22,430 bases of DNA, taken from IMG/VR virus record IMGVR_UViG_3300021375_000179, positions 1-22,430 of that record; one strand, written 5' to 3'. Below the pieces are notes generated by a model. The model saw only the letters and a program-made list of their open reading frames with translations, did no database searches and was not told where the DNA came from. The DNA comes from a virus. Both the position numbers and the translations under genes were made by a program. Within the stretch, counting starts at the first letter, position 1. The number at the start of each line of letters is the position of its first letter. Shown here in pieces: positions 7,005-15,938 of the stretch.

Positions 7005-7817
7005 ATGGCGGTAAATGTAAATACGGTATATCAAACAGTGTTGTACATATTGAATAAAGAGCAAAGAGGTTATGTGCCTCCAGCTGAATTTAACAGTATA
7101 GCGACACAAGTTCAGCTTGAAATATTTAACTCTTATTTTCCTGACGGAAATCAAATTAATAGAGTTAACCAAAATAACACTCAAAATAACACAGAATATT
7201 TTAATACGTTTGAAAACTTGTCTTACAAATTAACTCCTTTTGTACAAGAAGTATCTTTTTTATTAAATAGTACAATACCTGGAAATGATCCTATTTATAG
7301 TGATGGTATTGGTTTTAGCTTTCCAAGTGTAGATCCTGTTTCAGGTACTTTAAACCCTATTATTTATTTATTGGGTGAAGTTACTTGTAACTATACTGGT
7401 AATCCTACATTAAATTCAGTTGCTCAAATAGTTAGTAAAAAAGAATATACAATAATACAAAAATCTAAACTAACCAAACCGACAAGAAATCATCCTATAT
7501 ATTATAATTATGGCTACACTAATCCTTCGTCGACTGGAGTTAATAGCTATATAATAATACCTTCTCCTCTTCCTGATTCTGTAACCGCAAGCGTTATAAT
7601 TACTCCATCAAGTCCAATTTGGGGTTTTGTTGGCGGTTCTAACGGACAGTACTTATACAACAGAAACTCTTCTAACAACTTTTCTTTAGACGCTTCAGAG
7701 CAAACAAACTTAGTTGTAAAAATATTAAAATATTTAGGCATTGTTATTAATGATCCAACAATAATACAAACCGCAGCTCAAGAGTCTACGAAAATAGAAG
7801 TTAACGAAAAATCATAA
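7005..7817 (+). CDS. Putative head-tail connector / ring protein
   Basis: A 270-residue protein at the head-to-tail transition of the gene order. The N-terminal 45 residues form predicted helices (VNTVYQTVLYILNKEQRGY, then PPAEFNSIATQVQLEIFNSY). They are followed by an Asn-rich linker (NRVNQNNTQNNTEYFNTF) and a largely beta middle with many Pro/Gly turns. The C-terminus is helical again (ASEQTNLVVKILKYLGIVI). Helical ends with a beta body resemble small connector or ring proteins stacked under the portal in short-tailed phages, but no diagnostic motif is visible and the function is inferred from position. It starts 22 bases after the hairpin, with an A/T-only leader. Its TAA is followed by a second TAA and then the ATG of the next gene, so the two are probably co-translated. 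Confidence 0.7.
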   Translation: MAVNVNTVYQTVLYILNKEQRGYVPPAEFNSIATQVQLEIFNSYFPDGNQINRVNQNNTQNNTEYFNTFENLSYKLTPFVQEVSFLLNSTIPGNDPIYSDGIGFSFPSVDPVSGTLNPIIYLLGEVTCNYTGNPTLNSVAQIVSKKEYTIIQKSKLTKPTRNHPIYYNYGYTNPSSTGVNSYIIIPSPLPDSVTASVIITPSSPIWGFVGGSNGQYLYNRNSSNNFSLDASEQTNLVVKILKYLGIVINDPTIIQTAAQESTKIEVNEKS

Positions 7818-7820
7818 TAA

Positions 7821-9044
7821 ATGAGTTTAATAACTGAAACAAACCAGCAATATTATCAAGGCGCTCAAGGCTTTAGAGGTGATGGCACTACGCTAACTTT
7901 TCCAACTACGTTTGATACAGATTTGGTTTTAGGAAATTTTGATCCTAACAATATTAATTACGCTTTAAATAACTTTAAACTATACACAAGTTCTACTGGA
8001 TTACCTGGATCTTACTTAGAATATATTACAACGTTTACAGTTGTAGATAACGCAATAACATTTCCTGTAGCTCCAGCTACTGGTCTTTATATAGTTGTTC
8101 AGTTAAAAAAACTAGACGGTGGATTATATGGCAGTACAGAAGCTGAAAAAGCATACGGTCAAATAGTTGAAGATAATTATGGCAGTTACTCATATATTAC
8201 GCTAAATGACGCTATAGATAACTTTATGGTTGGCTATGTAGGTGATGGCAAGCTAATACAAACAGCTAAGAAATCAGATATACTTTTCTTTGCTAAAAGA
8301 GGTTTACAAGAGTTTAGTTATGATACATTGAAGAGTATTAAATCAGCTGAACTAACTATCCCAGTAAGCTTGACACTAGCTCTACCGCAAGATTACGTAA
8401 ACTATGTTAAATGCTCTTGGGTAGATCAACTGGGTGTTTTACATCCTATTTATCCTACAAACAACTTAACCACAAGTCCTTACTACACTCAAATTCAAGA
8501 CTCTAAAGGAATTCCCACTCAAGATAACTTTGGATCAGATATAGAAGGCACATCGATAACCCAAGAAAGATGGCACAGTAATAATAGAGGTAACTTATTA
8601 AACAGTGATTTATCAGGTATAAGCGATTTATCTTTAAACTGGAATCAAAACGGTGAGTGGATTAATTACCAAAACTTTGGCCAACTATACGGTGTAGATC
8701 CTCAGTACGCTAATATGAACGGTTATTTTAATCTAAACGAACGTGAAGGCAAAATGTCTTTTTCTAGTCACTTAGTAAACCGTTTAATAGTATTAGAATA
8801 CATTTCTGATGGCTTAGCATATGATACAGATACTAAGATACCAAAGATGGCAGAGGAAGCTTTATACGCACACATATTGCATGCTATAATATCTACACGT
8901 GCTAATCAACCTGAGTATGTAGTTCAAAGACTCAAGAAAGAAAGATCTGCTAAGTTAAGAAATGCTAAAATAAGATTATCTAATATTAAAACCGATGAAA
9001 TCACTCAAGTAATGAGAGGTAAATCTAAATGGATTAAACACTAA
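7821..9044 (+). CDS. Tail adaptor / tubular protein (T7 gp11 / P22 gp4-like role)
   Basis: A 407-residue protein that probably joins the portal to the tail nozzle. Its core, about residues 125-210, carries helices and a strand pattern typical of adaptor proteins of podoviruses of this kind: KKSDILFFAKRGLQEFSYDT, IKSAELTIPVSLTLALPQDY, then VNYVKCSWVD. The C-terminal 90 residues are helical and basic (AEEALYAHILHAIISTRANQ, then VVQRLKKERSAKLRNAKIRL). The N-terminal 100 residues are different: beta-rich, starting YYQGAQGFRGDGTTLTFPTT and ending with ITFPVAPATGLYIVVQLKK, reminiscent of fibre-docking domains. The gene is tightly packed with its neighbours, with 6 bases to the nozzle gene. The adaptor role is inferred from motifs plus order. 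Confidence 0.72.
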   Translation: MSLITETNQQYYQGAQGFRGDGTTLTFPTTFDTDLVLGNFDPNNINYALNNFKLYTSSTGLPGSYLEYITTFTVVDNAITFPVAPATGLYIVVQLKKLDGGLYGSTEAEKAYGQIVEDNYGSYSYITLNDAIDNFMVGYVGDGKLIQTAKKSDILFFAKRGLQEFSYDTLKSIKSAELTIPVSLTLALPQDYVNYVKCSWVDQLGVLHPIYPTNNLTTSPYYTQIQDSKGIPTQDNFGSDIEGTSITQERWHSNNRGNLLNSDLSGISDLSLNWNQNGEWINYQNFGQLYGVDPQYANMNGYFNLNEREGKMSFSSHLVNRLIVLEYISDGLAYDTDTKIPKMAEEALYAHILHAIISTRANQPEYVVQRLKKERSAKLRNAKIRLSNIKTDEITQVMRGKSKWIKH

Positions 9045-9050
9045 AATAAA

Positions 9051-12000
9051 ATGGGTAAATCTATAAATACATTTTTAAAGTCTAAAATGAATCAGGATCT
9101 AGATTCTCGTTTAATTCCAAACGGGGAATATAGAACAGCAAAAAACATTCAAGTAAGTGCTTCTGAGTCAGAAAATGCAGGATCTGTTGAAAATATATTA
9201 GGAAATATAAGGGTTTTAGACATTGTAGAACTAACTGGTGTTGAAGACTTGTTTTGCATTGGTCAATGTGTTAATGATGAAACAAGCGAAGTTTATTTGT
9301 TTTGGACAAACTGGGTTGATACTCCAAATAATAAATACTCTCCAGATTCTAGTAATTTTATAGTAAGATATAATTCTCAAACAGAAACATCTAAGGTTCT
9401 AGTTCAAGGTTCATTTTTAAATTTTTCAAGACAAAACCCTATACATGGCTCTAATGTTTTAGAAACTCTTCTTTTTTGGACGGATAACAGGAACCAACCA
9501 AGAGTTATAAATTTAAAACAAGCTGAAGCAAATATAAATTACTACACTACAGAGGATCAAATATCTGTAGCAAAATATAGTCCTTATAGTTGTATAGAGC
9601 TTTTTGAAGAAAGCTATTTATCCTCTACAGACGGAGCTTATGAAACCACGCTTAAAGATGTTGTTTCAAAAAATTATCCAAACGGTGGTTTTGGAAACTT
9701 AAATAGCAATATAAGCGCTAATACAACTACTGTAGAAGTAAATTCTTTTGTTGGAGACATTGTTTTATCAGGCGCTGAATACCCGACTGCCGCAACAGTA
9801 GGTTACACAGCTTTTGATACTGGTCAAATAACAATTATACCAGGCGCTACGCTTTCTTCAGCTACGTACGATACTCTTACAGCTATTTGGACATTTACTA
9901 TTACAGGAGGTACCTTTCCTGAATTAACAACCTTAAGTGATATTGTTTTAAATCCTAACCCATATTACAATTCTGGTTTTGCAGGTGATCCTGACTTTTT
10001 AGAAGATAAATTTTCTAGGTTTAGCTATAGGTTTAAATATGAAGATAATGAATATTCTTTATTCGCTCCATTTACACAAGCTGCTTTTATACCAGAGCAA
10101 GACGGTTATTTTTTATACGTAAAAAAACCAAATATATCAGAAATAAAAGATCAAAGTGATACTTATAGAAGTACTACGGTATCTTTTATGAAAAACAAAG
10201 TTAATGACATAAAGCTAAGAATACCATTACCTTTTAAAAACTATGATATACAAGATGGCTTAAAGCTCAAAGAAATAGATATATTATACAAAGAGTCAGA
10301 CGCAACAGCTGTTAAAGTTATAGAAACAGTCTCCATAAACGACGTGGTTAATTCAGCTGGAACTTTTTCTGTAAATGGAGACGTTCCAGCAGCAATGCAG
10401 TTTAATATAGATAATTTACAAGGAGGTATAGAAATAGGTTCTTTAATAACTGGCTTTGGAATAGTAGGTAAACCTAAAGTGACGGCTTATGAACCAACAG
10501 ACGTAAACAACCCTTCGACAGGTGGTTTAATTACCGTAGACTTACCGCAAACTCTAGTTGACGACGTTGTTTTAAATGTGAATGACCCTAACTACTTTGT
10601 TTACAATTATCAATCTAAAAAACCATTTAAAACTTTACCTGAGGCAGATCTCATAAGAGTTTATGATAAAATTCCAGTAAAAGCTTTAGCTCAAGAAGTT
10701 TCTGGAAATAGAGTTATATATGGTAATTTCCAAAACAAACACACACCGCCTAAGTTTTTGAATTATAACGTAACTTCATCTGCTAAAGCAGACTTTGATT
10801 TAAAGAAAGAAGAAGGAGAAGTAACAGGTGGTCCATACAACGGCACTACTATAACTATAGATAAAGGTGCTATACCACCAAATGTTGGTGATTTTATAAC
10901 TTTAGTCGTGGGGACTGGAGATATACCAGAAAATACGCAGGTAGTATCTGTTACAGAAACGCCTCCGAGTTCAGGTATTTTCGTAGTTGTTCTGACTAAC
11001 GCTGTAACTAATTTAGTGTCGTCTAACATAGTTTTATTTCAACCAGGTTCGAACACTTTACAAACAACTAGCATTGTAGAATATCCAAACCACAGCGTTA
11101 AGTCTAATAGAAACTATCAAGTAGGTGTTTTGTTATCGGATAGATATGGTAGAACATCTACTGTTATATTGTCAAACAACAAAGATACTATACTAATAGG
11201 ATCACCTCCAAGAGCATTTTCCGGTTCCACTGTTTACTCGCCATACATAGATCGCTCTGTAATTCCTTCTCAATGGCCCGGCAATTCTCTTAAGATTCTA
11301 TTTAATCAAACTATAGATTCAACTTTTAACGCTACAATTGGAACCCCTGGTTTATACAATGGGGATCCTACGAGCGACAACTACAATCCGTTGGGTTGGT
11401 ATTCTTACAAAATAGTTGTAAAACAAACAGAGCAAGAATACTACAATGTCTATCTACCAGGTATAATGGCTGCTTATCCGTCTGACACTACTTTAGAACT
11501 TGGATCAACATCTCACTTTGTTTTAATAAATGACAATATAAATAAAGTGCCTAGGGATCTATCAGAAGTTGGTCCAGAACAACGGCAGTTCAGGAGTTCT
11601 GCAAAATTATTTGGTAGAGTTGAAAACACAGATAATTTAATTGACCCTACAACTGACCTAGGTAGTTCTAATAAACAGTATTACCCTGAAAGGTTTAACG
11701 ATTTAGTTTCTACTATTTCAACAAATAAAGACTTATTTGATTATACACCTATAGGTGACGATGCTCCAAGACCTGATTACTTTCCTCAGTTTTATGACTT
11801 AGAATCAAATCCTTTAATAGCCAGAGTAAGTACACACAAGCGTATAGGTCAAATATCTACAACTAATTACGATACGGTTAGCGCTCAGTCATCGCTGTCT
11901 ACCAATACTGATATAATAAGATTAGCTAGCGTGGCTGGTGATCCTACAACTATAAACCCGGGTGATAAGGTTTTAGGTTCTGGATTTCCAGATGATTTAG

Positions 12001-13934
12001 TGATTGAGACACCTGGGTTTACTGCAGAATCACCTATCTCAAACACACCTGCTTTTGAGTCCGCGGCTGTATCTATAAATAATAAAATAATACTAAATAC
12101 ACTAGGTGATCCAGCTCAGTCAATAGCTGTTGGTGATTTAGTTTACAACCCAGCAGATTCCAATAGTATACCAGCAGGTACTTTTATAACAGCTATAGAC
12201 GTTAGTAGTAATGAAATTACACTAAATAACGCTGTAGCAATAAGCAATGGCACTGCTTTAGTTATATCTAACCCTGCTAGAATAAAAGTGAATAAACCAG
12301 TTAGTGTAAATACTGGTCAAATTGTAACTATAGTTAACGACGCCACGCCTGGCCTGCAGTATTTGGCTGTATATGAAACAGAGCCTGTAGAAAGTTTATT
12401 AGACATATTTTGGGAAACATCTACGTCGGGTTTGATTTCTGACTTAAATAATGCTATAATAGATTCTGCGTCGGGTGGAGCTAGTTTAAGCGGTTTGAAT
12501 CCTAGTCCTTTTACGGAGGGTCTAGAACAAGGTGGTGAAATATTTGCAGCTCCATTTAGCATATTAGATAATTTTGGTCAAATAATTCCTTTTGTAGAAA
12601 TTAATGAGACTTTAGAGATAACAAGTGTAACTAATGGATTAGGTGAAAATGTTAATAGTTATTTTACATTAACGCAGGTAGCTTCAAGTAATTTGTTTAA
12701 CATAGAAACAACTACTGAGTATTTTGATACAATGTTTTTTAACTACTTAGAACCGTCAAGAATTTTTACTTTTAAATTTAGAACAGTTATAAATGGATTA
12801 GAAACATTTTTTGAAGAAGAAATAGCATTACAAAATGTTGCACCAATCATTAGGTTTCCAAACCAAGGTCAAACTTTTTCAATTACACCTAATACAGTAG
12901 GCGTTTGTAACATAGCTGCTAGAAATGGAAGCGCAAATACTCAAGATCCACCAACAGGTAGTCCACTGCCTCTTTCAGGTAACTTCAACGCTGGTGATTG
13001 TACTATAGTGTCTCAAAAACAGGGGTCTATTGATGGTCCAGACGTTGATTATTTTACTGTACTTCCAGTAAATGTAAGTGGAACAGCAACAGACGCTAGT
13101 TGGAAGTTAGAGAACACAGCGGTTGGTACGATACCAGTAGATACTTTCTACTTAACTATACGAGTTCAAGACGCTGGAGGTAGTAGCTTTGCAGATGAAG
13201 TAGATATAATAGTAACTACAGGTGTTACTGTCGAAAATGTTTATCAAAGAGTGATAATGTCAAGGGAAATTAGTTTACCACCAGATGGTCCAGTATATAA
13301 TCCAAATTGGCATATGACTGCAACTCCACAGATTGCTTATCAATTTATAACGTTTTTTGAAGTAACAAGTGGGCCTACTGAGTCTCAAGGTTGGTATATA
13401 TTTAATGGACCTTTTAGTAGTACTAGTTACTATTATTTTATGACTTTCGCGGGTGGAATAGAAGGCTCGCCTGTAGGATTTAATAATACTTGGTTTGTAT
13501 TTGGTCTTATGGGAGTTTTAACCAGCCAATTAGCAAATGAAAACAATGTAATAGAGATTGATTTTCATAGTGCAAATGGTGATATAACTCAATTAAAGCA
13601 TGCGCCTACTCAAGAAGCTGCTTTTAATGAGTGGTTTAATGGTGGGCCAAGTGGTTCTATTAGCTGTAGGTATTCTCAAGTTTGGCCGTTTCCAAGTGGG
13701 TACCCGTGGAATCCTAGTACAGATGGTTATGGGGGTGAGTGTCAACCTTTAAATCCACTTCCTGGTAATATTGGTGGGTGTGTACCAGGAATGACATTGA
13801 GAGATAATGTTCCTTATGCCATTAACCCACCTGGCGCAGGAATCATTGGGTCTGCACCTGGCGGTGTTTTAGATATAAGTGCTAATGCTGAGGAGTTTGG
13901 GCTAGATCAATATACTTGGGCTATAGTAACTTAA
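9051..13934 (+). CDS. Giant tail nozzle/stabilisation protein (P22 gp10 / crAss stabilisation type) with extra domains
   Basis: A 1627-residue beta-rich protein. The N-terminus has the pattern of gp10-type nozzle and crAss stabilisation proteins: NTFLKSKMNQDLDSRLIPNG, EYRTAKNIQV, then NAGSVENILGN within the first 52 residues. A beta-propeller-like LFWTDNRNQPRVINL follows around residue 143. The family binds the adaptor and closes the tail channel. The middle contains several copies of a small beta-module (annotated separately). Around residues 1365-1389 a cadherin-like strand pair appears (FYLTIRVQDAGG). The last 235 residues are rich in Trp, Tyr, Phe, Gly, Pro and Cys and look like an adhesive or receptor-contacting domain. 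It is far longer than P22 gp10 (about 470 residues), so insertions have expanded it. No signal peptide or membrane segment is expected or seen. Confidence 0.72.
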   Translation: MGKSINTFLKSKMNQDLDSRLIPNGEYRTAKNIQVSASESENAGSVENILGNIRVLDIVELTGVEDLFCIGQCVNDETSEVYLFWTNWVDTPNNKYSPDSSNFIVRYNSQTETSKVLVQGSFLNFSRQNPIHGSNVLETLLFWTDNRNQPRVINLKQAEANINYYTTEDQISVAKYSPYSCIELFEESYLSSTDGAYETTLKDVVSKNYPNGGFGNLNSNISANTTTVEVNSFVGDIVLSGAEYPTAATVGYTAFDTGQITIIPGATLSSATYDTLTAIWTFTITGGTFPELTTLSDIVLNPNPYYNSGFAGDPDFLEDKFSRFSYRFKYEDNEYSLFAPFTQAAFIPEQDGYFLYVKKPNISEIKDQSDTYRSTTVSFMKNKVNDIKLRIPLPFKNYDIQDGLKLKEIDILYKESDATAVKVIETVSINDVVNSAGTFSVNGDVPAAMQFNIDNLQGGIEIGSLITGFGIVGKPKVTAYEPTDVNNPSTGGLITVDLPQTLVDDVVLNVNDPNYFVYNYQSKKPFKTLPEADLIRVYDKIPVKALAQEVSGNRVIYGNFQNKHTPPKFLNYNVTSSAKADFDLKKEEGEVTGGPYNGTTITIDKGAIPPNVGDFITLVVGTGDIPENTQVVSVTETPPSSGIFVVVLTNAVTNLVSSNIVLFQPGSNTLQTTSIVEYPNHSVKSNRNYQVGVLLSDRYGRTSTVILSNNKDTILIGSPPRAFSGSTVYSPYIDRSVIPSQWPGNSLKILFNQTIDSTFNATIGTPGLYNGDPTSDNYNPLGWYSYKIVVKQTEQEYYNVYLPGIMAAYPSDTTLELGSTSHFVLINDNINKVPRDLSEVGPEQRQFRSSAKLFGRVENTDNLIDPTTDLGSSNKQYYPERFNDLVSTISTNKDLFDYTPIGDDAPRPDYFPQFYDLESNPLIARVSTHKRIGQISTTNYDTVSAQSSLSTNTDIIRLASVAGDPTTINPGDKVLGSGFPDDLVIETPGFTAESPISNTPAFESAAVSINNKIILNTLGDPAQSIAVGDLVYNPADSNSIPAGTFITAIDVSSNEITLNNAVAISNGTALVISNPARIKVNKPVSVNTGQIVTIVNDATPGLQYLAVYETEPVESLLDIFWETSTSGLISDLNNAIIDSASGGASLSGLNPSPFTEGLEQGGEIFAAPFSILDNFGQIIPFVEINETLEITSVTNGLGENVNSYFTLTQVASSNLFNIETTTEYFDTMFFNYLEPSRIFTFKFRTVINGLETFFEEEIALQNVAPIIRFPNQGQTFSITPNTVGVCNIAARNGSANTQDPPTGSPLPLSGNFNAGDCTIVSQKQGSIDGPDVDYFTVLPVNVSGTATDASWKLENTAVGTIPVDTFYLTIRVQDAGGSSFADEVDIIVTTGVTVENVYQRVIMSREISLPPDGPVYNPNWHMTATPQIAYQFITFFEVTSGPTESQGWYIFNGPFSSTSYYYFMTFAGGIEGSPVGFNNTWFVFGLMGVLTSQLANENNVIEIDFHSANGDITQLKHAPTQEAAFNEWFNGGPSGSISCRYSQVWPFPSGYPWNPSTDGYGGECQPLNPLPGNIGGCVPGMTLRDNVPYAINPPGAGIIGSAPGGVLDISANAEEFGLDQYTWAIVT
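10356..10580 (+). other. Beta-module, copy 1 (in nozzle protein)
   Basis: Residues about 436-510 of the nozzle protein. The recognisable core is IEIGSLITGFGIVGKPKV, followed by a turn and LITVDLPQTLVDDVVLNV. It matches the loose pattern G-x-V/I-x-G-x-G-[IV], spacer, T/K-x-V, spacer, paired strands, seen again further on. It is a degenerate protein-level repeat; DNA identity between copies is low. Confidence 0.45.
10824..11050 (+). other. Beta-module, copy 2 (in nozzle protein)
   Basis: Residues about 592-667. The core is GTTITIDKGAIPPNVGDFIT, then GTGDIPENTQVVSVTETP, then a strand pair ending NAVTNLVSSNIVLFQPG. Order of elements: entry strand, G-D/S turn, 'P-E-N-T-x-V' turn, exit strand with hydrophobic F. 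Same layout as the other copies. Confidence 0.5.
11898..12272 (+). other. Two tandem beta-modules, copies 3 and 4 (in nozzle protein)
   Basis: Residues about 950-990 (INPGDKVLGSGFPDDLVIET, apparently shortened) and about 1006-1074 (IAVGDLVYNP, IPAGTFITAIDVSSNEITLN, NGTALVISNP). They sit back to back and show the clearest form of the module: 'I-x-x-G-D-x-V', then 'P-x-G-T-x-[IV]-x-x-[IV]', then 'I-T-L-N-N-A', then 'G-T-x-L'. Confidence 0.5.
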
Positions 13935-13961
13935 TAAATAAATAAGTAATAATAAATAAAT
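13935..13961 (+). promoter_or_regulatory. A/T-only leader with stacked stop codons
   Basis: The 27 bases between nozzle and next tail gene are A/T except for one G and made of TAA/TAAA units. They provide further in-frame TAA codons after the nozzle stop and an unstructured leader for the next ATG. There is no Shine-Dalgarno; this probably works as an A/T-rich initiation region of the Bacteroidota kind. Confidence 0.4.
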
Positions 13962-15938
13962 ATGGCTGCTATAATAGAGATAAAATACTTTAACACTTTC
14001 ACTCTACATAAAACTAACAACGCTTCGGAAGAGCCTATATGGAATGGATCTAGAGGCGTACCTAAAGACTTAAGTGGTTACGATGTTGTTCCTAATACAA
14101 CTGATGAAAACAACTGGGTTATAGAGGAGTCTAGAATAACAGGTGGATATAATAACACTTCCGTGGATTTTGGAGTTAAAGCTTACGTGGTAGAAGAAGA
14201 TGCTAATGCTTCGTTTTTAAGCAGTTCATTGATATATTCTGGTCCTTTTAATTCTAGAACCGGCATAAATAAAACTAATGTTTTTTCAATTGGCGAAGAT
14301 ATAACTAAATCCGCAGACCCATCTAACGGGTCTATACAAAAACTATACGCTTCTGATTCTAATATAAACGTGTTTCAAGAGCTAAAAGTAAGTAGAGCGT
14401 TAATTGATAAAGATGCTATTTACTCTGCAGAAGGAGGAGGAGCAATAACTAATTCTAATTTAGTAATTGGAACAATACAACCTTATGCTGGAGAGTATGG
14501 TATAAGTAAGAATCCAGAAAGCTTTGCGGTTTATGGTTATAATCAATATTTTTCTGATAAAAACAAAAACACTGTTTTAGAGCTAAACGCAAGTGGTATA
14601 AGTGAAATATCTTCTTTTGGTATGAAAAACTTTTTTAGAACAAAGTTACAGTCTATAGATAGTTCAATAAGTCAAGGCTATGTTTTAGGTGGTTTTGACA
14701 TTCACAACAAACAATACGTAGCTTCTCTGCAGCCAAATCCAGTTTTAAACACTAGTAATAACTATAGTACTTTGTCTTATGACTCTAGATATAATGGTTG
14801 GGTTAGTTTTTTCGATTACGAGCCAGATCAAATGTTTAGTATAAGAGACAAGTTTTACTCTGTAAAAAGTTTTGTTGGTGAAGGTTCTTTTGCTGTCACC
14901 ATAAATGTTGAAACCACGCCGCAACCTCAGTCAGTATTTCAACTGCTACCTGGTTCTATTAATGGTGATATAGTGACAGGAATGACTGCAACCATTTGTA
15001 ATGTCACTCCTTGCAGTCCAGAGAACATGGTGGTAATAGGAAATGTAGTTAGTTTTGACCCAAATACTAACACGCTGGTTTTAGACACTGAAAGAGTATA
15101 TACGTCTAATCAAAAAATATTTTTTGGCTACGCGTCAGGTGTTTACAAACATTACTCTAAACAAGTTCCCAGGTCTAGTTTTTATTCAATTCAAAACGCT
15201 AGCTCAATTAGTTTTGTGGTTAACGAAGACCCTGTTAAGTCTAAGTCTTTTCAAACCATATCTTACGAGGGTGGCAACGGATGGCGTGTAGATACTATAA
15301 GCCCGGTTGTTTCTGATCCAACTGGAGATGATTTTTCTATATCAACACAAAATTGGAGTCAAACAAGAGATTCATCTTACTTTGTGCCTAGCTATTACGA
15401 GGGTAGATACACAGTAATTGACTCACAAGCTTCATCAGCGGCGGCCTCAACAACTACAAGTGTAGTTGTTCGAAACTTAAGCGGCACATATGGAGCTGGT
15501 GGTAATAGTGAAGTTATGATCCCAGTTGGCGCGAGTGTACTTGGTAATGGAGTAGATTTAGGAACTAGAGTTGTTAGTTACACACCAGCTACAGGTGTAT
15601 TAGTTGTAAATCAAAACTTAAATATAAGCGTTAACACATTACTTTATTTTAATTTGAATGTAGAGTCGCAAGATTACCAAACTGTCTTTGGAACATCTCA
15701 GCCTAGTTTTATAAATCAATTTTATAAAGGTTTTAGTAGAAAGGAAAACAAGTACGTTGCTAGCTTAAAAAATTCTTCAGGACCTAACGCTGGTGAGGTG
15801 AACTTTGGCAACGATATAGCTGGTATAAAAGGATTTTATGTAAACGTTACTATGACTACTGATTCAGTAACTAATCCTGGAGGCGAAAAACAGCTTTTTA
15901 GCGTAAACACAACTTATAATACAAATAATGGATATTAA
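13962..15938 (+). CDS. Phage tail structural protein, nozzle-associated
   Basis: A 658-residue, beta-rich protein directly after the nozzle gene. Its N-terminal half has motifs I associate with tail proteins of crAss-like and marine Bacteroidota phages: NWVIEESRITGGYNNTSVDF (residues about 48-67), LIYSGPFNSRTGINKTNVFS, and NGSIQKLYASDSNINVFQEL. A propeller-like stretch, AVYGYNQYFSDKNKNTVLEL then SGISEISSFGMKNFFRTKL, follows near residues 190-230 and resembles sequence normally found near the end of gp10-type nozzle proteins. The C-terminal half carries two more copies of the beta-module found in the nozzle protein (about residues 324-390 and 496-564). It likely assembles on the nozzle, possibly as its distal part or a fibre collar; the exact role is inference. 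Confidence 0.68.
   Translation: MAAIIEIKYFNTFTLHKTNNASEEPIWNGSRGVPKDLSGYDVVPNTTDENNWVIEESRITGGYNNTSVDFGVKAYVVEEDANASFLSSSLIYSGPFNSRTGINKTNVFSIGEDITKSADPSNGSIQKLYASDSNINVFQELKVSRALIDKDAIYSAEGGGAITNSNLVIGTIQPYAGEYGISKNPESFAVYGYNQYFSDKNKNTVLELNASGISEISSFGMKNFFRTKLQSIDSSISQGYVLGGFDIHNKQYVASLQPNPVLNTSNNYSTLSYDSRYNGWVSFFDYEPDQMFSIRDKFYSVKSFVGEGSFAVTINVETTPQPQSVFQLLPGSINGDIVTGMTATICNVTPCSPENMVVIGNVVSFDPNTNTLVLDTERVYTSNQKIFFGYASGVYKHYSKQVPRSSFYSIQNASSISFVVNEDPVKSKSFQTISYEGGNGWRVDTISPVVSDPTGDDFSISTQNWSQTRDSSYFVPSYYEGRYTVIDSQASSAAASTTTSVVVRNLSGTYGAGGNSEVMIPVGASVLGNGVDLGTRVVSYTPATGVLVVNQNLNISVNTLLYFNLNVESQDYQTVFGTSQPSFINQFYKGFSRKENKYVASLKNSSGPNAGEVNFGNDIAGIKGFYVNVTMTTDSVTNPGGEKQLFSVNTTYNTNNGY
14931..15130 (+). 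other. Beta-module, copy 5 (in 658-residue tail protein)
   Basis: Residues about 324-390. The core is INGDIVTGMTATICNVTP, a Cys-containing turn, then VVIGNVVSFDPNTNTLVLDT and a final strand with F. The layout matches the modules in the neighbouring nozzle protein but it carries two cysteines. Degenerate, so confidence is moderate. Confidence 0.4.
15447..15653 (+). other. Beta-module, copy 6 (in 658-residue tail protein)
   Basis: Residues about 496-564. STTTSVVVRNLSG, then IPVGASVLGNGVDLGTRVVS, YTPATGVLVVNQNL, and TLLYFNLN. This is one of the clearest copies: entry strand, 'V-G-A-S-V-L-G-N-G-V', 'G-T-R-V-V-S', exit strands, terminal F. Confidence 0.5.

Follow-up and report, generated by a model that had tools for sequence, protein, structure and literature searches.

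We identified six segments in the muzzle protein of an aquatic crAss-like phage that are almost certainly homologous copies of one inserted, autonomous small beta-module. They lie in a stretch of 22,430 nucleotides from the IMG/VR record IMGVR_UViG_3300021375_000179 (the whole stretch is hereafter called the window), in which the muzzle is encoded by two neighbouring genes, referred to here as the N gene and the C gene (Table 1). The explanation that best accounts for our results as a whole, and that we consider distinctly probable, is a homologous, inserted, self-nesting barrel module which may form a peripheral decoration.

The module is about 75-85 amino acids long and has the core G-x-I-x-V-G-x-x-V-x-G-x-G-I-P-x-G-T-x-V-x-S ... 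T-L-S-x-x-V-T-L ... L-x-F. A previous reading of this DNA without database searches (the sequence-only reading) had proposed that a small beta-module recurs at least six times, and all six of its coordinates (10356, 10824, 11898, 12066, 14931 and 15447) land on the segments described here, at residues 436, 592, 950 and 1006 of the N protein and residues 324 and 496 of the C protein. The motif layout that it spelled out is real: a relaxed form of 'I..G..V.G.G' matches three times in the two proteins, whereas 2000 shuffles gave a mean of 0.04 matches and none reached three. However, the layout is too strict to describe the family, as the unrelaxed form matches only twice and 'GT.VV' once, and even the relaxed form covers three of the six segments, so that a profile is needed. 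Single modules are also too divergent for tblastn, which gave no match for one module against the phage collection at 0.01, and profiles were therefore used.

A hidden Markov model (HMM) trained on relatives only was run over the full set of 129 six-frame stretches from the window; its matches were confined to the two muzzle genes, where it found all six copies. The profile-profile comparison that the sequence-only reading had suggested as a check was made with hhalign and joined the five main sites (1, 2, 3/4, 5 and 6) to one another at probabilities of 95.7-98.0%, against a median of 0.17% for 144 pairs of a module with a control segment taken from elsewhere in the same proteins. One control, residues 401-485 of the C protein, matched strongly; inserts are present there in three relatives (L102, L103 and L105), and without these the probability drops to 0.1-0.3%. 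In addition, HMMs built with one site left out recovered 60 of 66 inserts at site 1, 70 of 82 at site 2, 53 of 77 at site 3/4, 14 of 16 at site 5 and 47 of 48 at site 6 (E<1e-3), and found none of 5,780 shuffled inserts from the main sites at that threshold; reversed or shuffled inserts likewise gave nothing at 1e-3. With their own site left out, the inserts of the window scored 4e-7 (site 1), 5e-6 (site 2), 6e-10 (site 3/4) and 1.5e-9 (site 6). A chance motif is excluded by the shuffles and the control segments.

Nesting and predicted fold

The sequence-only reading had listed six copies by position. All six are present, but those at 11898 and 12066 are not consecutive: along the protein, a stretch equivalent to HMM positions 11-47 is followed by a whole inner module (positions 11-77) and only after it by positions 57-76. 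When the inner module is cut out, the spliced outer halves score 20.6 bits as one module (shuffled maximum 6.1) and so rebuild a full copy. Copy 4 thus very probably sits within a hairpin of copy 3, a case of self-nesting. Relatives repeat this arrangement in nearly all double inserts at sites 2, 3/4 and 6, where the spliced outer module scores 9-43 bits; two double inserts failed to resolve into the nested pattern. The inner copy usually enters in the stretch from about HMM position 47 to 57, which is the hairpin ahead of the T-L-S strand.

Structure predictions for the two proteins had mean pLDDT values of 82 (N) and 76 (C), and values within copies 5 and 6 were mostly above 80. Foldseek gave no match for the N model at E 0.001, and the small-barrel matches come from a second structural search. 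In that search, copy 2 (model residues 410-489) matched residues 89-169 of the T5 Dit protein pb9 (Z 8.1, 2.1 A over 71 residues) as well as a GTA tail protein and the N-terminal barrels of F1-ATPase. The models of copies 1 (258-336) and 4 (822-900) gave Z values of 6.7-7.0, the former against EF1A domain 2 and the latter against residues 479-558 of the JBD30 baseplate protein (Z 7.0). The JBD30 hub is a match in structure only; the sequence search with the module profile did not find it. The chi tail tip also appears among the structural matches of the models. For copy 5 (307-390) the match was to residues 103-178 of the phage Mystique tail tube (Z 8.3 over 74 residues), a tail-tube domain of another description. 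Judged from these models, the fold class is probably the small barrel of the EF-Tu-domain-2 (RIFT) type, as found in phage Dit and hub proteins. Both EF-Tu domain 2 and the F1 barrel are members of the RIFT-related group. RIFT-related domains have been reported from many phage tail and neck proteins (PMC10684548).

Gain, loss and wider occurrence of the module

We aligned 97 relatives of the N part and 88 of the C part of the muzzle, and built a tree of 89 phages from the body columns only. In these alignments the module stretches appear and disappear between flanks that are for the most part conserved, and this comparison, which the sequence-only reading had also put forward, showed single copies gained or lost between conserved flanks. 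The lengths between the flanking anchors fall into an empty class (0-29 amino acids), a filled class (about 70-130) and, at three sites, a double class (about 145-180). Site 1 is empty in about one third of relatives and copy 5 is missing from 72 of the 88 C proteins, including L110 and L099, whose bodies are 76% and 73% identical to that of the window. Nine of the 89 phages have no insert at any of the five main sites, where the window has six modules. With length class taken as the state on the unrooted tree, the minimum numbers of undirected state changes at six sites (the candidate site M0 included) are 2, 5, 7, 9, 6 and 5, 34 in sum, a count in which a few module-length inserts are other sequence (e.g. 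L083-L086). The module is therefore an insertion domain whose sites switch between empty, filled and doubly filled in evolution. The proposed spread of an insertion domain is upheld by these at least 34 changes, by the three kinds of site and by its presence in other virion proteins.

A query with the module consensus brought in further phage contigs, and it is strongly supported that the family extends beyond the muzzle to ring, head-closure, sheath, baseplate and hub-type proteins, also in unrelated phages. Carriers include a tail sheath protein (L179), a head-closure protein of the P22 gp10 type (L198), baseplate-type proteins (L178) and a gpJ-type protein (L171). The clearest case is L198, with a clean module insert of 66 residues that is absent from relatives at 73, 65 and 48% identity. 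Homologues of the ring-type gene of the window (7005-7817), encoded at 1593-2573 in L114 and 1832-2824 in L154, carry the module at two different positions, and the copy in L114 is nearest to site 1 of the muzzle of the same phage (44% over 73 amino acids).

No Pfam or NCBIfam model covers the module (Pfam scan of 26 modules at E 0.1), its PHROG matches were single and weak, and the literature searched, which was covered in part, held no account of the module or of self-nesting in phages. It is a plausible proposal, for which we put the chances a little below even, that the module represents a new promiscuous family of virion insertion domains, with its own hairpin as preferred acceptor and hence a recursive 'Russian doll' growth, that may move among muzzle, ring, sheath, connector and hub proteins, also within one genome. 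Composition gave no clear sign of a recent foreign origin of the modules of the window: their GC content is 0.33-0.42 against 0.34 in the body, and GC3 is similar.

Giant repeat-rich bacterial proteins (L238-L252, from Verrucomicrobia, Rhodobacterales and others) also match the module profile, some of them repeatedly, and one has autotransporter PATR repeats as well. These matches were graded weak because beta-repeat proteins may match by composition.

The split muzzle and its surroundings

The genes of the window match portal, capsid-type and ring-type structural families, and they have relatives among Cellulophaga, Flavobacterium and Maribacter phages. The sequence-only reading had assigned the modules to two tail genes, a nozzle gene and its neighbour. 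Both genes do carry copies, but together they encode a single muzzle protein, one its N-terminal and the other its C-terminal part: they match Pfam crAss_MUZ (N gene, 51 bits, curated cut-off 27) and crAss_MUZ_C (C gene, 29.4 bits, curated cut-off 27), share PHROG 14478, to which the C gene aligns at positions 927-1144, and both give models that match the muzzle of phicrAss001: the C model aligns with residues 1072-1371 of 7qol_P (Z 14.0, 2.8 A, 269 residues) and the N model with residues 164-934 of 7qok_A (Z 10.6). A two-gene muzzle is also seen in the N+C pairs gathered from viral contigs of aquatic relatives (e.g. L001-L003, L088). Among the named comparison loci (L004, L005 and L006), phi38:1 and elemoF have one muzzle gene, and Maribacter phage Panino has two; a single gene is thus not a defining feature of the crassvirus muzzle. 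The total length over both parts ranges from about 1,500 to 2,500 residues among the phages compared.

Table 1. Muzzle genes and modules of the window, with positions on the 22,430-nucleotide stretch
Feature	Position	Strand	Protein residues	Basis
N-terminal part of crassvirus muzzle protein (N gene); bears copies 1-4	9051..13934	+	1627 aa	Pfam crAss_MUZ, PHROG 14478, model match
C-terminal part of muzzle protein, separate gene (C gene); bears copies 5-6	13962..15938	+	658 aa	Pfam crAss_MUZ_C, PHROG 14478, model match
M0, candidate seventh module	9702..9959	+	N 218-303	family-level hhalign 88-95% to main sites
Copy 1	10359..10586	+	N 437-512	HMM 1.6e-21; model 258-336 like EF1A domain 2
Copy 2	10806..11048	+	N 586-666	HMM 5e-14; model 410-489 matches T5 pb9
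Copy 3, outer module, first half	11883..12056	+	N 945-1002	HMM 0.006, positions 12-47
Copy 4, nested within copy 3	12057..12275	+	N 1003-1075	HMM 5e-8, positions 12-77; model 822-900
Copy 3, outer module, second half	12276..12344	+	N 1076-1098	HMM positions 57-76
Copy 5	14874..15140	+	C 305-393	HMM 9e-9; model 307-390 matches Mystique tail tube
Copy 6	15420..15659	+	C 487-566	HMM 1.4e-15; pLDDT ~70-98

M0 is a candidate at the level of the family: the HMM matches 22 of 92 individual M0 inserts, and that of the window, which has no significant match singly, is not among them. We also observed three other features of the muzzle genes. The C-terminal tail of the N gene (12858-13934, residues 1270-1627), just 5' of the gene split, diverges much faster than the rest and differs greatly in length between relatives. 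In L059 the N part is found in two reading frames (8001-10934 and 10993-13380), possibly a frameshift or an assembly error. A different, second type of insert with a motif like 'G-x-G-Y-x-x-G-D-x-V' occupies other loops of the same muzzle proteins: it follows residue 159 in the N proteins of both L145 and L151 and residue 66 in that of L105, and it also lies in the N protein of L083 and at about residue 403 of the C protein of L105.

Possible roles of the modules and comparison with known systems

The ends of the module would lie close together, so that a host loop could tolerate its insertion, and it may have spread by recombination between phages together with copying within a genome. The muzzle is hexameric in phicrAss001 (PMC10172136). 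Six copies on such a hexamer would place about 36 modules on the tail tip, where they could act as a fast-evolving peripheral decoration that touches the host surface or the surroundings weakly and at many points. The sequence-only reading had offered glycan contact or particle decoration as possible roles. Among the roles considered, decoration or weak adhesion is the most likely candidate, although we judge it somewhat short of probable.

Several results weigh against our overall account. Copy 5 scores weakly against an HMM built without its own site (E=0.01, 15.4 bits; shuffled maximum 11.9). The structural matches have Z values in the middle range, and the solved fold matched by copies 1, 2 and 4 was not recovered for copies 5 and 6. 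Within the muzzle proteins nearly all best matches fall at the same site, with cross-site identity of at most about 50%; most insertions thus appear from their sequences to be old and inherited, and recent movement to be rare. Finally, aromatic and charged residues are scarce in the modules, and there is no conserved surface site.

In 594 of 611 comparisons of close pairs, the modules had diverged more quickly than the body, and their conserved positions are mainly glycine, hydrophobic residues, proline and threonine. On this divergence and composition, a scaffold with free surfaces seems to fit better than a conserved sugar-binding site. The modules might instead be structural braces, each barrel packing on a neighbouring muzzle subunit and stiffening the hexamer with host contact uninvolved. 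Domain 2 in the tail tube of the chi-like phage YSD1 does latch neighbouring subunits (PMC7385642), the structural matches include the chi tail tip, and the conserved module positions are purely structural with few aromatics. Nevertheless, the nine phages without any module at the five main sites show that these are dispensable, a fixed partner should preclude divergence so much faster than that of the body, and a second copy tolerated in the hairpin is unexpected for such a brace. We therefore consider bracing unlikely, though it is the main alternative. A role as near-neutral passengers is about equally unlikely: small, fast-folding, close-ended domains that virion loops tolerate could travel by recombination and persist with no dedicated function, which would suit the frequent gain and loss, the fast divergence, the nesting and the insertion into many unrelated virion proteins. 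On the other hand, the copies have kept an open reading frame and the ability to fold for long periods, are for the most part inherited at a single site, and six of them cost about 1.4 kb of coding sequence.

Carbohydrate-binding modules (CBMs) with a defined sugar site, as in evolved Dit proteins, are less probable still. The loops of Dit proteins in other phages do hold inserted CBMs (PMC7291167) and the tail tip is the right place for them, but the 26 modules gave no match to any CBM family in Pfam at E 0.1, tryptophan and tyrosine make up 2.6% of the modules against 6.6% of the body, and polar or aromatic residues form no conserved cluster. Finally, the sequence-only reading had itself named different folds, or consecutive strands of one large domain, as what would speak against a module; all segments do lie in beta-rich sequence rich in threonine, valine and glycine, but similar-looking strands of one large protein are scarcely credible as an explanation, given that the copies are separable, with whole segments missing in relatives between conserved flanks, that small barrels of one kind are the structural matches of three copies, that other beta-rich body segments are unmatched and shuffled or reversed inserts never reach the threshold, and that the module stands alone in unrelated proteins.

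Promiscuous beta-domains in phage virion proteins are already known, as Ig-like domains, CBMs in evolved Dits and BACON repeats; this module and its self-nesting would add to them. The family is absent from curated libraries and connects virion-protein segments of different phages that had lacked annotation. What promiscuous beta-domains do for phages has been asked since the first description of the Ig-like domains, and the empty, single and nested sites of near relatives provide a natural series for addressing it within one protein. In addition, crassvirus muzzle proteins become easier to align and annotate once their removable segments are known.

According to Fraser et al. 2006, as reported in PMC8718954 and PMC7385642, the Ig-like domains of tailed phages are scattered among many virion proteins, are missing from near relatives and are thought to give weak surface contact. 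The muzzle module resembles them as a small beta-domain that is sporadic in many virion proteins and missing in near relatives. It differs in that the modules are loop inserts which nest in one another, with a predicted fold nearer to a small barrel, and Ig, Big and fn3 profiles matched none of the 26 modules (Pfam, E 0.1). Domain 2 of the YSD1/chi tail tube (PMC7385642) is likewise a beta-domain inserted in a tail protein; however, it is a single copy with a bracing role and is described as a variant Ig-like fold. The BACON repeats of crAssphage, single domains of which have been horizontally transferred in some lineages (PMC6949934), are also repeated beta-domains in the tail region of a crAss-like phage, but they stand in tandem in a separate protein, whereas the modules are scattered loop inserts in the muzzle; BACON (PF13004) had no match in the modules at E 0.1. 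The CBMs of evolved Dit proteins (PMC7291167), which are decorating modules, share with the muzzle modules their place as loop inserts in tail-tip proteins, present or absent among relatives; the muzzle modules are without a CBM match, have few aromatics and sit in another host protein. Residues 474-525 of lambda gpJ match the module profile weakly over part of its length (E 0.025 in the PDB search; 13.5 bits, E 0.003 in a search space of 1000, with none of 200 shuffles as good), and in the gpJ hub they are a resident part, at another position and in another protein. A likeness in predicted fold, seen in the matches of copies 1, 2 and 4, is to the RIFT or EF-Tu-domain-2-like barrels (PMC10684548) and the OB-type domain of T5 pb9 (PMC7291167). 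Those barrels are fixed single domains of hub and Dit proteins, whereas the modules are many, occupy polymorphic sites, nest in themselves and have a sequence signature of their own.

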